Position numbers and translations under genes: made by a program
The notes under the pieces: model-generated
What the model was told of the DNA's origin: nothing
The model's database searches: none
Seen by the model: only the letters and a program-made list of their open reading frames with translations
Part shown: one piece after another, positions 4,634 through 8,912 of the stretch
Numbering within the stretch: position 1 is the first letter of the stretch
Layout: every line of letters begins with the position of its first letter
NCBI RefSeq assembly: GCF_014201835.1
Contig: NZ_JACHFH010000011.1
Location: 1-64,000, forward strand
DNA: 64,000 bases
Reading direction: 5' to 3'
Source of the DNA: Pectinatus brassicae
GTDB taxonomy: Bacteria; Bacillota; Negativicutes; Selenomonadales; Selenomonadaceae

Positions 4634-6046
4634 TCATTTATTATTAGTGCAGTATTTTTTTATTAAGCGGCTGGCCTTACTTTGGCTGATTTTTAATTTC
4701 TGTGCGGTTTTATAAGAACTTTTTGTTTCCTCATAAGCAGAAATGATAATTTTTTTCTCTACATAATCTAATGTTTCTTGTAAAGAGCCACAGAAAAAAT
4801 CTTCGGTAAAGTAATTATCTTGTGTTTTTTTTGAGTTGTCTTTATCAATAGCAGGTTCTGATATAGGCAAATCAATACTATCAATTACAGTTCCCTTGTT
4901 AATGACAACAGCACGTTCAATAATATTGGATAATTCACGGACATTTCCCGGCCAGGAATATTTTAGGAATAAATTAAGCACTTCTTCAGAAAATTTACGC
5001 TTTCGACTGTATTTATTATTGAATTGTTTTAAAAAATAAAGTGCCATTGATATTATTTCTTCACGGCGGTCTCGCAAGGGCGGAAGTTCTACTTCAAAAA
5101 CATTAAGGCGGTAGTATAAATCTTCACGGAACAGTTTATCCTGTATCATTTTATAAATATCTCTGTTGGTAGCGGCTACTATACGGCAATTCATATGCTG
5201 CAAAGTACGACCGCCTACTTTGTAGTAACTTTTATCCTGTAATACCTGAAGAAGTTTAGCTTGCATTTTTAGCGATAATTCGCCAATTTCATCTAGAAAA
5301 AGTGTACCATTATTCGCCAGTTCAATAAGGCCGCTGTTTCCTTTGCTGTTTGCACCAGTAAAAGCACCACGGGCATAGCCAAATAATTCGGATTCCATAA
5401 GCTCATCAGGGATAGAAGCACAATTTATGGATATGAATGGACCATCAGGCTGGGGGCTGTTTTTGTGGATATAATTAGCCATATGACTTTTACCAGTACC
5501 AGACTCACCCAATATTAAAACGGTAGAATTTGTTTTGGCGATTTTATGAATTGTCGGGATTAATTTCATCATTCGTTCACTGTAGGAAAATACAGAGGGA
5601 ATATCACCGCTATAGTTGCGTAATGCTTCCAATTCCTTTTTATAACGAGCTATAAGTTTGTTAGCTTTGGTTAAATCATTGGTGATTTTTTTATTTTCGG
5701 TAATATCACGCGAATTTTCTATAATATATTCTATATTGCCTTCTGAATTAAATATAGGTATAGCTGTAGTTAATAATGTTCGTCCGGTTTTGGTATATTG
5801 TTCAATAGTCATTGGAATTTTTTCTTTAAGTACTCGGGGACTTAGGCGAGGATACCAATAGTTTGCTAATGAGATTTCAGTATTGTTTTTACCGATGAGT
5901 TCAGCACATTTTGTGCCGCAGTGTTCTTCAACAGCACGATTAGCATAGCAGACAATACCTTGAGCATCAATAACATATATTTCATTTGGTGAATAATCGA
6001 GAAATTTTTTTAATATGTCGTAGCTGATTTTTTTATTAATAGTCAT
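4634..6046 (-). CDS. sigma-54-dependent transcriptional activator, PAS-AAA+-HTH
   Basis: A 470-residue enhancer-binding protein. An N-terminal PAS domain (about 10-115) is the likely sensor, followed by a coiled linker, then the AAA+ domain with Walker A GESGTGKS (180-187), the sigma-54 contact loop GAFTGA (227-232) and Walker B GTLFLDEIGE (247-256), and a C-terminal Fis/TyrR-like HTH (about 430-470). There is no receiver domain, so it probably senses a small ligand. It stands beside the corrinoid/pyrrolysine genes, where PAS sigma-54 activators of corrinoid methyltransferase clusters are common, but no -24/-12 promoter was found nearby. Its own 5' leader carries a terminator hairpin (6063-6110). 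Confidence 0.92.
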   Translation of the reverse strand: MTINKKISYDILKKFLDYSPNEIYVIDAQGIVCYANRAVEEHCGTKCAELIGKNNTEISLANYWYPRLSPRVLKEKIPMTIEQYTKTGRTLLTTAIPIFNSEGNIEYIIENSRDITENKKITNDLTKANKLIARYKKELEALRNYSGDIPSVFSYSERMMKLIPTIHKIAKTNSTVLILGESGTGKSHMANYIHKNSPQPDGPFISINCASIPDELMESELFGYARGAFTGANSKGNSGLIELANNGTLFLDEIGELSLKMQAKLLQVLQDKSYYKVGGRTLQHMNCRIVAATNRDIYKMIQDKLFREDLYYRLNVFEVELPPLRDRREEIISMALYFLKQFNNKYSRKRKFSEEVLNLFLKYSWPGNVRELSNIIERAVVINKGTVIDSIDLPISEPAIDKDNSKKTQDNYFTEDFFCGSLQETLDYVEKKIIISAYEETKSSYKTAQKLKISQSKASRLIKKYCTNNK

Positions 6047-6062: not shown

Positions 6063-6110
6063 AAAAAAAAATCCCTGAAAGCAAAAAGCTCTCAGGGACA
6101 TCATTGTCGC
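6063..6110 (-). promoter_or_regulatory. terminator-containing leader of the sigma-54 activator gene, ANTAR-type P2-like hairpin
   Basis: On the minus strand an 11-bp stem (6088-6098 with 6072-6082) is followed by nine T, a complete intrinsic terminator only about 17 bases before the ATG at 6046. Just upstream is a small hairpin, stem GAC/GTC (6106-6108 with 6097-6099) closing the six-base loop AATGAT, with A at loop position 1 and G at position 4. Its 3' arm overlaps the start of the terminator stem, so the two structures exclude each other, as in targets of ANTAR RNA-binding antiterminators. No clear first hairpin (P1) is seen. Confidence 0.5.
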
Positions 6111-6134
6111 AGATATAGATATAGATATAGATAA
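6111..6134. repeat. short tandem repeat, four 6-base units of agatat type
   Basis: Three perfect units and one imperfect unit of agatat lie in the untranslated leader of the sigma-54 activator gene, directly upstream of the hexaloop hairpin. The length could vary by slippage and would change leader length. Confidence 0.75.
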
Positions 6135-6213
6135 ATGATATCATATAAGTAAATATTATTTTGTTTTAAACAATTGTTTTTGCTGATAGATATTAAAATA
6201 TTGGTAAAGTAAC

Positions 6214-6317
6214 TTGTAAAAATATAGGTATAATGCTATAATTACAAAAAAAAGGTACTGTTATAATGAGCGAAGAAGCTTAGAAATACTTTGGATAAAA
6301 GATTTCTAAGCTTTTTT
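6214..6317 (+). promoter_or_regulatory. leader A: promoter plus ANTAR-type hexaloop hairpins and terminator, upstream of the broken ECF gene
   Basis: Promoter: TTGTAA at 6214-6219, 17-bp spacer, TATAAT at 6237-6242. The transcript would start near 6249. P2-like hairpin: TGAGC/GCTTA (6267-6271 with 6278-6282) around loop GAAGAA (G at position 4; position 1 is G rather than A). The P1-like loop ACTGTT (6257-6262) has only a weak stem. The terminator stem 6278-6287 with 6302-6311, followed by six T, shares its 5' arm with P2. The layout matches leader B at 6.7 kb, and the sequence AGCGAAGAAGCTT is one base off the published ANTAR motif AGCAANGRRGCUY. Confidence 0.6.
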
Positions 6318-6352: not shown

Positions 6353-6529
6353 GGCTGTTTTTTAGCAGCATTATATTTAGGCTCAGGTCATGGTGCAGCT
6401 GTTGGAGCATTAGGGCATTTTTTTACAGCATTATTATCTGGATTTTCGTTGTCATTACCGGTGCATATTATAATTATGATTGATATGGTAGTTACGATGA
6501 TCATATTTGGTAATATTTTTAAAATATAA
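6353..6529 (+). pseudogene. remnant of an ECF transporter substrate-binding (S) component gene
   Basis: Open for 58 codons without a proper start, this stretch encodes a hydrophobic segment with motifs GHGAAVGALGHFFTALLSG and LPVHIIIMI, characteristic of the middle of ECF S components such as the cobalamin-precursor-related CblT type. Intact members are roughly 150-190 residues, so both the N-terminus and the C-terminus are missing. An ATG-ATG pair at 6330 lies in another frame and meets TAG after ten codons. The remnant sits behind its own promoter and leader (leader A) and next to corrinoid genes, suggesting a lost corrinoid or corrinoid-precursor uptake function. Confidence 0.65.
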
Positions 6530-6639: not shown

Positions 6640-6752
6640 TTGTATTTGTGTAAATGTTGTGCTATAATTTCCTTGTGATCAAAAAAATTAATACCGTTAT
6701 TATAGCAAAGAAGCTTATAGATATATCTATCAGAATATCTATAAGCTTTTTT
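6640..6752 (+). promoter_or_regulatory. leader B: promoter plus tandem ANTAR-type hairpins and terminator, upstream of the corrinoid/tRNA-Pyl operon
   Basis: Promoter: TTGTAT at 6640-6645, 17-bp spacer, TATAAT at 6663-6668. Two small hairpins follow one base apart: P1 TAAT/ATTA around loop ACCGTT (6693-6698) and P2 AGC/GCT around loop AAAGAA (6707-6712). Both loops have A at position 1 and G at position 4. P2 reads AGCAAAGAAGCTT, an exact match to the ANTAR target motif AGCAANGRRGCUY known from the Enterococcus eut locus. The P2 3' arm is also the 5' arm of an intrinsic terminator (6713-6724 with 6735-6746, then six T). The default state would be termination before the corrinoid gene; a bound ANTAR regulator would allow readthrough. 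Confidence 0.7.
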
Positions 6753-6774: not shown

Positions 6775-7440
6775 GTGAAAAAAAATTTTCTTATGGATGG
6801 CCTGCGTCGTGCACTGGAAGATTTAGATACTGAAAAAGTTCTTCAGTATTCCAGGCAGATAAAGATGATTGCGTTTGATCCGCTTATGGTAATAAATGGT
6901 GCATTAATACCAGCAATGCGGAATATCAGTAACGCTTTTGATGAGGGCTCATTGTTTGTACCTCAATTATTAGTGGCAGCAGATGCATTTGAGCAATCAA
7001 TAAAAATTCTGACGGCAAAAATGTCAGGATCACAATTAAAAAAACTAAAAAACGGTAAAATACTAATCTATACAGTGGAAGGCGATATCCATGATGTTGG
7101 CAAGAACATCGTTAATATTGTTTTTCAAAGCAATGGTTTTGAGATAATAGATTTAGGCAGAAATGTTAATGCCCATAAAGTTATAGATGCAGCACAAGCA
7201 TACGATGTTGATATGATTATTTCATTTGCCTTAATGACAACTACTCTGCCGCGCCAGAGAGAATTAATTGATGTTCTCGAGGAAAAAGGCATACGTAATA
7301 AATACAATGTTATTATTGGCGGGGCAGCTGCATCATACCAATGGGCAGCAAAAATTGAAGCCGATGGTTATGCGGGATCTATATCTGAGGGAATAGTTAT
7401 GACTATGAACTTAATAAAGGAAAAAGTAGAAGCTGTATAA
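6775..7440 (+). CDS. corrinoid (cobalamin-binding) methyl-carrier protein, MtbC/MttC-like
   Basis: A 221-residue protein with a helical cap domain (about 1-88) and a B12-binding Rossmann domain (about 93-221). The cobalamin motif is D104-x-H106-x-x-G109 (GDIHDVGKN), His106 being the lower axial ligand; a later GGAA supports the nucleotide-tail pocket. Proteins of this class carry a methyl group from a substrate-specific methyltransferase (methylamines, betaines, methanol) to a second methyltransferase. The start is GTG at 6775 with AGAGGA nine bases upstream; the ATG at 6772 is out of frame. It is the first gene after leader B, and tRNA-Pyl begins 16 bases after its stop, which points to a pyrrolysine-dependent methylamine system. 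The partner methyltransferase is absent here. Confidence 0.9.
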   Translation: MKKNFLMDGLRRALEDLDTEKVLQYSRQIKMIAFDPLMVINGALIPAMRNISNAFDEGSLFVPQLLVAADAFEQSIKILTAKMSGSQLKKLKNGKILIYTVEGDIHDVGKNIVNIVFQSNGFEIIDLGRNVNAHKVIDAAQAYDVDMIISFALMTTTLPRQRELIDVLEEKGIRNKYNVIIGGAAASYQWAAKIEADGYAGSISEGIVMTMNLIKEKVEAV

Positions 7441-7456
7441 TTATTAAAATATGCAT

Positions 7457-7528
7457 GGAGGATGGATCGAATAGATCACGCAGACTCTAAATCTGTGCAG
7501 TCGAGTGAAACTCTCGGATTCTCCGCCA
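7457..7528 (+). tRNA. pylT: tRNA-Pyl (anticodon CUA), pyrrolysine amber-decoding tRNA
   Basis: A 72-base tRNA with encoded CCA. Features special to tRNA-Pyl are all present: 7-bp acceptor stem (7457-7463 with 7518-7524), a single base before the D stem, a short five-base D loop (GATC-GAATA-GATC), a six-bp anticodon stem (CGCAGA/TCTGTG), anticodon loop CTCTAAA with CTA at 7487-7489, a three-base variable loop CAG, and a T arm lacking TTC but with loop TGAAACT. As far as I recall, the D arm, anticodon loop and T loop agree with Desulfitobacterium hafniense tRNA-Pyl almost base for base. It lies 16 bases after the corrinoid gene stop and 31 bases before the pylSn ATG, so it is probably processed from an mRNA. 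Confidence 0.95.
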
Positions 7529-7559: not shown

Positions 7560-7916
7560 ATGTCCAAAAATAATGCAGTAAAAATTGAAAATAGTGAACT
7601 GGAACAAACTAAAAAGCGTTATTATCGCAAAAACACCGATTTTGCCAAATTGATTGAGAAAATAAAATTATGGCCTGCACGTTCAGGGGTTTTACATGGA
7701 GTGAAATCTGTGCAATTAAAAGGTGAAATTATTGAAATAACTACTCACTGTGGAGAAAATTTTATTGTAAGAAATTCACGCAACAGCAGAGCTGCTCGTT
7801 GGCTGCGTAATAAATGGTGTGGTTCAGCATGTCGTGCCTGTAAAATTCCTGACTGGAAAATACAAAAATATAGTTCTACAATGCTCAGTAAGCAATGGGG
7901 TTCAACATTACAGTAA
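7560..7916 (+). CDS. pylSn: PylSn, stand-alone N-terminal tRNA-binding domain of pyrrolysyl-tRNA synthetase
   Basis: A 118-residue protein matching the N-terminal domain of archaeal PylS, which bacteria encode as a separate gene. The core (about 33-105) has LWPARSGVLHG, THCGE, RNSRNSRAARWLR and CRACKIPDW, matching the archaeal LWMSRTGTLHK, ACGD, NNSRSCRTARAFR and CKRC. The putative zinc ligands His46, Cys64, Cys91 and Cys94 keep the archaeal spacing. The domain grips the T arm and small variable loop of tRNA-Pyl and assists the catalytic PylSc. The frame extends to a GTG at 7548, but that overlaps the ribosome-binding site AAAGGTG, so ATG 7560 is the start. No pylSc, pylB, pylC or pylD is in the window. 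Confidence 0.93.
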   Translation: MSKNNAVKIENSELEQTKKRYYRKNTDFAKLIEKIKLWPARSGVLHGVKSVQLKGEIIEITTHCGENFIVRNSRNSRAARWLRNKWCGSACRACKIPDWKIQKYSSTMLSKQWGSTLQ

Positions 7917-7967: not shown

Positions 7968-8912
7968 ATGAAAAAATTAATAAAACTTTTTCTTTTGACA
8001 GGTTTTCTGGGAGCAGGAAAAACAACCTTATTAAAAAAAATAATTGACCATTTAAAAGAACATAAAATTGGCATTATAATGAATGAGTTCGGCAATATAA
8101 GTATTGATGGAATGCTTTTGCGTGACCAGGGGATGGAAGTGCATGAAATAAATAATGGCTCAGTATTTTGCAGCTGTTTAAAAGGCGAATTTGTTGATTC
8201 TTTAATAACGTATTCGCAGCTGCCTATTGAATATTTATTTGTTGAAAGCTCTGGTATGGCTGATCCGTCTAATATTAAATCATTATTAGAAGAAGTTATT
8301 GGCAAATCTGCTGGCATTAGTTATGATTATCGTGGTGCTATTTGCATTGTTGATGCCAATAATTTTCTTGATCAGCTTGAAGTTTTGCTGCCGATCGAAA
8401 GGCAGGTTAAGACAGGTAATTACATTGTCTTAAATAAAATGGATATGGTTTCAGCTGATATGGCTAAACAAGTAACAAATAAGCTGATAGCTTTAAATTC
8501 TAATGCACAAATAATTGAGTCGTCATATTGTGATGTTTCCCTTGACTTTATGGATGGTAATGTAACTGATATTTTAGATGATTTTCCAGGTGCACAAAGC
8601 TGTAGCATAAATACGCCATCTAATAGACCGGTAGGACATATTATAAAACTAAAGGGGATATTTGAGGAAGATAAAATACGCTTGTTTATTGATGGGATAA
8701 TTCCCTGTATGATTAGAATAAAAGGGTTTTTCCACTTTAACACTGGCTGGAAGCAAATTGATGTATCAGGGAATCATATTGAAATAAAAAACACCAATAT
8801 TCGGCCGGAAATGTCTGAAATGGTACTTATTTCTACGAAAGGGTTGCCGGCGTTGCGCGAAATATATACTCAGTGGAGTAAATATTTTGACATAGAATTA
8901 GAACTGAGTTAA
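7968..8912 (+). CDS. COG0523/CobW-family GTPase (metallochaperone-like)
   Basis: A 314-residue G3E-type GTPase: Walker A GFLGAGKTT (12-20), ESSGMADP (93-100), NKMD (156-159), and a C-terminal CobW_C-like domain from about 220. The family's metal-binding CxCC element appears here in altered form, CSC-L at 68-70. Members insert or deliver metals or corrinoids; relatives occur in corrinoid methyltransferase clusters, where a role in corrinoid protein assembly is suspected but, as far as I know, unproven. It follows pylSn by 51 bases on the same strand and ends at a terminator, so it is probably the last gene of the leader-B operon. Confidence 0.88.
   Translation: MKKLIKLFLLTGFLGAGKTTLLKKIIDHLKEHKIGIIMNEFGNISIDGMLLRDQGMEVHEINNGSVFCSCLKGEFVDSLITYSQLPIEYLFVESSGMADPSNIKSLLEEVIGKSAGISYDYRGAICIVDANNFLDQLEVLLPIERQVKTGNYIVLNKMDMVSADMAKQVTNKLIALNSNAQIIESSYCDVSLDFMDGNVTDILDDFPGAQSCSINTPSNRPVGHIIKLKGIFEEDKIRLFIDGIIPCMIRIKGFFHFNTGWKQIDVSGNHIEIKNTNIRPEMSEMVLISTKGLPALREIYTQWSKYFDIELELS

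Follow-up and report, generated by a model that had tools for sequence, protein, structure and literature searches.

The window analysed, a 64,000-nucleotide stretch of Pectinatus brassicae DNA, carries a gene for a sigma-54-dependent activator on its minus strand and, diverging from it on the plus strand, a short run of genes for pyrrolysine use. The features of the locus are listed below, with hairpin loops in square brackets and with A1, A2 and G4 denoting the base at the given loop position.

4634–6046, minus strand: gene for the sigma-54-dependent activator (470 aa; PAS, AAA+ with GAFTGA, HTH)
6063–6102, minus strand: terminator of the activator leader (stem 6099–6071, T run to 6063), overlapping the 3' arm of the hexaloop hairpin
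6097–6108, minus strand: hexaloop hairpin GAC[AATGAT]GTC, a putative antiterminator (A1, A2, G4; closing C-G)
6111–6133, no strand: AGATAT hexamer repeat (3.8 copies), at the position expected for a first hexaloop hairpin (P1)
6140–6169, minus strand: candidate sigma-70-like promoter TTAAAA-18-TATGAT, ending 31 nt before the activator hairpin
6257–6314, plus strand: leader A, a degenerate dual-hexaloop leader, GT[ACTGTT]AT and AGC[GAAGAA]GCT, with its terminator at 6275–6314
6362–6529, plus strand: ECF transporter remnant (substrate-binding component) following leader A (PF12822, E 0.0097, below the cut-off; no ORF of at least 80 aa)
6689–6749, plus strand: leader B, a dual-hexaloop leader, TAAT[ACCGTT]ATTA and AGC[AAAGAA]GCT, the second hairpin overlapping the terminator at 6710–6749
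6775–7440, plus strand: gene for a corrinoid protein of pyl/methylamine type with B12-binding domains (TIGR02370, 2e-55; 187.1 bits, short of the 215.3-bit cut-off)
7457–7528, plus strand: tRNA-Pyl-like gene with a CUA anticodon, found by pattern match and not called by ARAGORN
7560–7916, plus strand: gene for PylSn, the small subunit of pyrrolysyl-tRNA synthetase (TIGR03912, 1e-38, above cut-off)

Profile searches with the activator protein returned PF00158 (2e-67), PAS_9 and HTH_50, and its AAA+ sigma-54 interaction domain, the GAFTGA motif seen in the translation and its HTH mark it as a member of the bEBPs. In a class-level sample, matches at E 1e-100 or better occurred in 10 of 380 genomes, P. 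brassicae included, which is the sole one of its family among the ten; two of the related loci are 58% identical and the remaining ones 41–45%. At the one of the two closest loci that was examined (L156), the activator gene lies beside genes for a corrinoid protein, for PylSc and for an MttB whose reading frame contains a TAG. Because of these neighbours, the P. brassicae activator, whose divergent neighbour is the corrinoid–tRNA-Pyl–PylSn stretch, is probably a regulator of a pyrrolysine/methylamine module rather than of the PTS genes that flank it on the opposite side. Matches to a -24/-12-like element with at most one mismatch number 30 in the window, where chance would give 19 and 2 of 100 shuffles had as many as 30; the one in the intergenic stretch between the activator and corrinoid genes sits in the ECF remnant, some 370 bases upstream of the latter. 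On a pyl contig (L143) there are 7 such matches against 1.7 by chance (0 of 200 shuffles), most of them within coding sequence; a perfect one at 1900–1915 lies inside a CobT-like gene, about 300 bases before a corrinoid activase-like gene. Despite its pyrrolysine set, the P. brassicae genome gave no match for an MTTB-family methyltransferase.

Leader B heads the pyrrolysine operon and is the only leader in the window to pass a strict two-hairpin rule (two A1/G4 hexaloops, the second on a terminator). In leader A, the second loop has G in place of A at position 1 and the first hairpin is poor; this leader is a decayed copy of a dual-hexaloop leader. Behind leader B, the gene at 7457–7528, which we take to be tRNA-Pyl, lies between the corrinoid and PylSn genes, and the stretch is followed at 7968–8912 by a gene for a CobW-type GTPase, perhaps concerned with metal or corrinoid supply. 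A second tRNA-Pyl gene of the same genome (L127 1567–1741, C54) has its own hexaloop-terminator leader, on a contig that also encodes PylSc, PylB, PylC, PylD, a corrinoid activase-like protein and a CobT-like protein. A transposase-type HTH protein of 160–163 aa, possibly a domesticated pyrrolysine regulator, recurs in the pyl clusters of four genomes (L127 923–1408, from a domain scan; L179 613–1104, L180 1698–2189 and L055 2949–3431, by eye).

A covariance model of the dual-hexaloop form, R1, was trained on five leaders: B, those of glnK-amtB and the second tRNA-Pyl gene, and those of pyl loci in two relatives, G107 and G026. In the window, R1 scored B, a training member, at 53.4 bits and A, which was held out, at 26.6 bits (E 5e-4); the activator leader was absent from its 26 window matches up to E 10. 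Its top four matches in the P. brassicae genome were B, glnK and the second tRNA-Pyl, all training members, and A, and a scan of 200 relatives marked seven genomes, that of P. brassicae included. Two further matches lie in PylSn-bearing contigs of G109 and G117, the latter with no terminator detected by the terminator finder. The P1 loops of dual leaders are ACCGTT or near it and the P1 stem is weak in most of them; pairing in the five-leader alignment was not above that in shuffles (84.8% vs 82.8%; 216 of 500 shuffles as high). In relative G109, a dual-type leader (L180 1514–1551) lies ahead of a tandem pair of corrinoid genes; about 20 additional bases separate its P1 loop from the second hairpin (P2), making the linker longer than those reported as functional in E. 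faecalis.

Read 5' to 3' on the minus strand, the activator leader consists of GCGAC[AATGAT]GTCCCTGAGAGCTTTTTGCTTTCAGGGATTTTTTTTT, followed by 16 bases and by the ATG at 6046. The original prediction of a terminator before the activator start codon, overlapped by a GAC-AATGAT-GTC hairpin with A1 and G4, is thus borne out. The terminator scan found the 12-pair stem at 6099–6071 with its T run, and counted two terminator-like sites in the region, where shuffles gave 0.0; the terminator folds at -20.8 kcal/mol, with z-scores of -4.6 and -6.3 in two stretches, and no shuffle folds equally well. Since the intergenic stretch upstream of it holds no ORF of at least 80 aa on the same strand, this is a leader terminator. 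The 3' arm of the GAC/GTC hairpin (6108–6097) also forms the first part of the terminator's 5' arm. The hairpin itself comprises three pairs, a fourth position being C-C, and in a predicted fold A1 and U6 could pair to leave a tetraloop. The promoter candidate is weak on its own, because sigma-70-like matches number 7 in the region against 7.3 in shuffles; an alternative scoring chose a -10 element, TATCAT, 26 nt before the hairpin.

As to a P1 in the activator leader, the 35 nt preceding the hairpin hold no A1/G4 hexaloop with a 3-bp stem, and no ACYRTT motif was found. A P1 of other geometry, with an ATTGTT loop about 60 nt upstream, was rejected as lying beyond the spacing limits given in excerpts of PMC3369931 and PMC8934654. 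The leader therefore has the second hairpin of a dual-hexaloop leader (at least 3 bp, A1/G4, overlapping the terminator) and no A1/G4 hexaloop just upstream, and it fits a single-hexaloop class, NNC[AAHGNN]GNN on a leader terminator. The view that three such leaders occur within 700 bp has accordingly to be narrowed: B is a full dual-hexaloop leader, A is degenerate and precedes a remnant gene, and the activator leader, although it shares with B's second hairpin the A1/G4 hairpin on a terminator, has one hexaloop, no P1 and no R1 match. Rfam gave nothing above the gathering threshold in the window, and in 19 loci of the class only a tRNA (L277).

Sites of this class, with a C-G-closed AAHGNN hexaloop on a terminator, recur in the P. 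brassicae genome. Among the matches listed, 20 were found and 17 kept, three (L185, L219 and L237) being inside coding sequence by eye. Relatives contributed 27 more, after own-genome duplicates (L023, twice; L067) and two sites judged to be chance (L024, L062) had been left out of 32, for a total of 44. Of 150 genome matches to RGCAANGNNGCY, a count inflated by the recurring AGCAAAGCTGCC, which does not pair, part of the first 100 was examined. Most of the 17 precede ammonium, urea, amino-acid, purine or pyrrolysine genes, several of the gene names resting on NCBIfam matches below the curated cut-off. Four sites stand before the B operon, the activator, the second tRNA-Pyl and the corrinoid activase-like gene, whose leader has GGC[AATGGA]GCC on its terminator plus an ACTGTT P1 loop. 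Ammonium and urea genes are represented by glnK-amtB, an AmtB-GlnK fusion and UrtA urea transport, and other transporters by a GlnH-like binding protein, a GlnQ-type transporter and an SsuA/NitT-type transporter, at which the first ORF has no Pfam match. Further sites precede a xanthine-permease-like gene, an allantoate-type amidohydrolase, another amidohydrolase and a PLP-dependent enzyme; one (L243) is a leader without an assigned gene, and one (L190), intercistronic in an amino-acid transporter operon, may be chance. The remaining site belongs to a hybrid histidine kinase and has a loop, AATGAT, identical to that of the activator leader, which would make it the leader of a second regulator within the regulon. 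There (L249 110–2838; C11:64107), genes for the hybrid sensor kinase and an AraC-type regulator adjoin a urea transporter, the leader hairpin being GGC[AATGAT]GCC.

The absence of a recognizable P1 is common within the class. Twelve of the 17 sites have no ACYRTT within 22 nt upstream, and in one of the twelve (L235) an A1/G4 hexaloop with an A-T-paired stem lies farther up; across all 44 sites, ACYRTT occurs in 9, and an A1/G4 hexaloop of 3 bp lies in the 35 nt upstream in 7, against 3.1 in shuffles. By consensus matching, near-consensus promoters end 7–22 nt before the hairpin in several sites (in L168, TTGACA-17-TATAAT, 12 nt before it; in L243, 7 nt), so that the predicted RNA would have no room for P1. 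The leader of the GlnH-like gene (L213 1480–1515) has a possible P1, TAAG[TTTGTA]CTTA, before GGC[AACGTG]GCC; with T1 and G4, it fits the view that G4, not A1, is the contacted base.

The same design is conserved in relatives, as a class, before ammonium transporter genes. The sample comprised the 14 GlnK matches of relatives, among the matches listed, in frames of at least 566 aa, a frame of such length in P. brassicae being an AmtB-GlnK fusion by Pfam. In ten of these 14 listed frames, the leader terminator is overlapped by an A1/G4 hexaloop whose stem is GGC/GCC, GGC/GCT, AGC/GCT, CAC/GTG or GAC/GTC; GAC/GTC, as in the activator leader, accounts for five of the ten, and loop position 2 is C in three. 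In the remaining four, two have a terminator without a hexaloop (one of them truncated by a contig end), and in two the finder detected no terminator. Relatives' loci around GlnK-like genes more broadly (L068–L096) have a site in only 6 of 29, and non-fused glnK upstream regions of the same genus in 0 of 4.

Could the activator leader be a former dual-hexaloop ANTAR leader whose P1 was overwritten by the AGATAT repeat, so that its response was lost and the gene is held off by the terminator or expressed at a low fixed readthrough? The hexamer repeat does occupy the P1 position, the distance of 31 nt from the -10 element to the hairpin (26 nt with the other -10) resembles that of the dual leaders of the same genome (29–35 nt; A, 26 nt), most single-hexaloop leaders have a shorter spacing of 7–22 nt (one has 30), and P1 is described as obligatory in E. 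faecalis in excerpts of PMC3369931. A missing P1 need not mean lost function, however, because those 12 of 17 sites, some without room for a P1, and the leaders of the relatives' ammonium transporters have the single form as well. Loss of the response is therefore possible but, in our view, unlikely.

A second alternative is chance resemblance, in which an ordinary terminator, of a leader or between genes, has a 5' arm that happens to pair with upstream bases around an A1/G4 hexaloop. This was the reading first adopted, because P1 is missing and because 4 of 49 strong terminators (those of the window plus L063, two of the entries being the activator terminator itself) had some A1/G4 hexaloop. 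The stem is indeed short, at 3 bp, the site was selected after the fact, and in the activator's close relatives (58% and about 44% identity) the corresponding place lacks a leader terminator bearing a hexaloop. In a 300-kb control from the same genome, 8 of 152 strong terminators had an A1/G4 hexaloop when weaker stems were allowed, but just 1 of 152 had an overlapping one with at least two G-C pairs, so that the overlap at the activator leader is more than expected by chance.

The control is joined by a held-out scan, in which a weight matrix built from 42 sites outside the window, with unpaired stem positions penalised, was applied to 127,752 window positions. Leader B ranked first, A sixth and the activator hairpin tenth; among the top 40 positions, only B, A and the activator leader overlap a terminator, and among the top 200, five do. 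These results, together with the sites elsewhere in the genome, overturned the first reading. Motif enrichment, as computed, points in the same direction: of 68 pair-compatible RGC[AANGNN]GCY sites in the P. brassicae loci examined, 14 fall on a terminator, whereas with other loops 5 of 690 do, giving a Fisher p of 5e-12 that is too good, because B and glnK suggested the pattern and the loci were partly hand-picked. The sample of 68 is non-random, its sites having been picked partly by pairing and loop letters, and the share on terminators varied with the choice of loci, from 1 of 17 in tool-chosen loci to 4 of 20 and 3 of 16 among hand-picked ones.

Motif shape was assessed on the 26 sites to which the A1/G4-terminator rule by itself had led, the window and all pattern- and model-chosen sites being excluded. 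A2 is present in 23, the closing C-G in all 26 and a fourth pair in 21 (shuffled mean 14.8; 3 of 5000 shuffles as high), against 73, 112 and 91, respectively, in 237 control A1/G4 hexaloops; with the five dropped sites restored, the counts are 24, 29 and 25 of 31. Over all 44 sites, the fourth pair, which the activator hairpin lacks, forms in 34, and a fifth in 21, a count that does not go beyond chance (shuffles, 17.3). The activator hairpin agrees with the class in A2 and the closing C-G, and its strand offers no upstream intergenic ORF of at least 80 aa that would need a terminator. Taken with the control and the held-out rank, this leaves chance resemblance quite unlikely.

A candidate reader of the hairpin is encoded in the same genome, where a single protein matches ANTAR with an E of at most 0.001 (PF03861, 2.4e-19), a receiver-ANTAR regulator of the PdtaR/EutV type whose gene adjoins that of a GAF_PdtaS-PAS-HisKA_2 kinase. 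Its closest solved structures are 1s8n (Rv1626) and 6wsh (a response regulator, presumably EutV). In an alignment with an assumed numbering offset of 2, the positions of EutV Arg142, Lys143, Tyr164 and Met172 hold R, K, Y and M, and that of Lys147 holds R; the roles of these residues are treated in excerpts of PMC8934654.

The activator leader is, in our judgement, probably a conditional attenuator of the ANTAR type with a single hexaloop, which places the activator in a nitrogen regulon. Transcription would start from a sigma-70 promoter situated some tens of bases before the hairpin and, by default, end at the terminator before the activator gene. The ANTAR regulator, as partner of the PdtaS-like HisKA_2 kinase, would be active presumably under nitrogen limitation, a signal suggested because of the gene content of the regulon. 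In its active state it may bind the C-G-closed AAHGNN hexaloop as this emerges, thereby holding the terminator's 5' arm, and polymerase would then read into the activator gene. The activator would thus be on hand under nitrogen shortage alone, and at sigma-54 promoters it would contribute a PAS-sensed signal of its own. The proposal that the activator itself belongs to an RNA-controlled regulon is supported by the held-out rank of 10, by the same design at nitrogen genes and by the 10 of 14 relatives' frames among the matches listed, as far as the class is concerned; for this particular gene, an RNA switch above a sigma-54 switch is plausible. It is very improbable that some RNA-binding protein or factor other than the ANTAR regulator reads this class of hexaloops: we infer the link between ANTAR protein and leaders, and the literature searched yielded no report of single-hexaloop antitermination, but the A1/G4 rule, the overlap of P2 with the terminator and the nitrogen genes match ANTAR targets (excerpts of PMC3369931), and among the leaders of this genome one is truly dual-hexaloop and shares the second hairpin, next to dual-type leaders with weaker P1 stems.

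A broader reading, to which we give about even chances, is that P. brassicae and its relatives have a single-hexaloop ANTAR nitrogen regulon in which P1 is dispensable and which reaches the activator, the hybrid kinase and the pyrrolysine machinery. If so, pyrrolysine-dependent methylamine genes and a sigma-54 activator would be tied to a nitrogen RNA regulon, and the use of an extra amino acid would be part of nitrogen control. It would also call for a wider search for ANTAR targets, the two-hairpin model R1 having missed the activator leader, and would offer a test of the first hairpin's role; leaders with room for one hexaloop would show that the minimal unit suffices in transcription. The open-licence papers searched held no report of a single-hexaloop ANTAR regulon for nitrogen or pyrrolysine genes, nor of a sigma-54 activator of pyrrolysine genes under such control.

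In the accepted model of ANTAR control, two hexaloops are needed, one to recruit the regulator and one to antiterminate. In E. faecalis, deletion of P1 abolishes induction and altered linkers lower it (excerpts of PMC3369931); a linker extended by 20 nt abolishes antitermination in vitro, and, although the dimer binds one hexaloop, both loops are considered necessary for antitermination (excerpts of PMC8934654). Like the dual leaders of E. faecalis eut, Klebsiella nasF and Pseudomonas amiE, the activator leader carries an A1/G4 hexaloop on the 5' arm of an intrinsic terminator, in a genome with an ANTAR response regulator and nitrogen-themed targets; unlike them, it has no P1 and hence no P1–P2 spacing, and its hairpin lies near the predicted 5' end of the transcript. 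Leader B has a linker of 1 nt as drawn, against 5–12 nt in E. faecalis, and the AC/GU closing pairs of the activator's GAC/GTC stem are those whose change disrupted P1 induction there (excerpts of PMC3369931). Another likeness is to the single sites of Walshe et al., 2022, in which, according to excerpts of PMC8934654, one hexaloop with G4 is the minimal binding unit; those sites, in EutX for example, were proposed where transcription sets no time limit, whereas the sites described here lie on leader terminators. Finally, the pairing of an ANTAR regulator with a GAF_PdtaS/HisKA_2 kinase recalls PdtaS-PdtaR (Rv1626) and EutW-EutV, from which the P. brassicae system would differ in its regulon of nitrogen scavenging and pyrrolysine genes.
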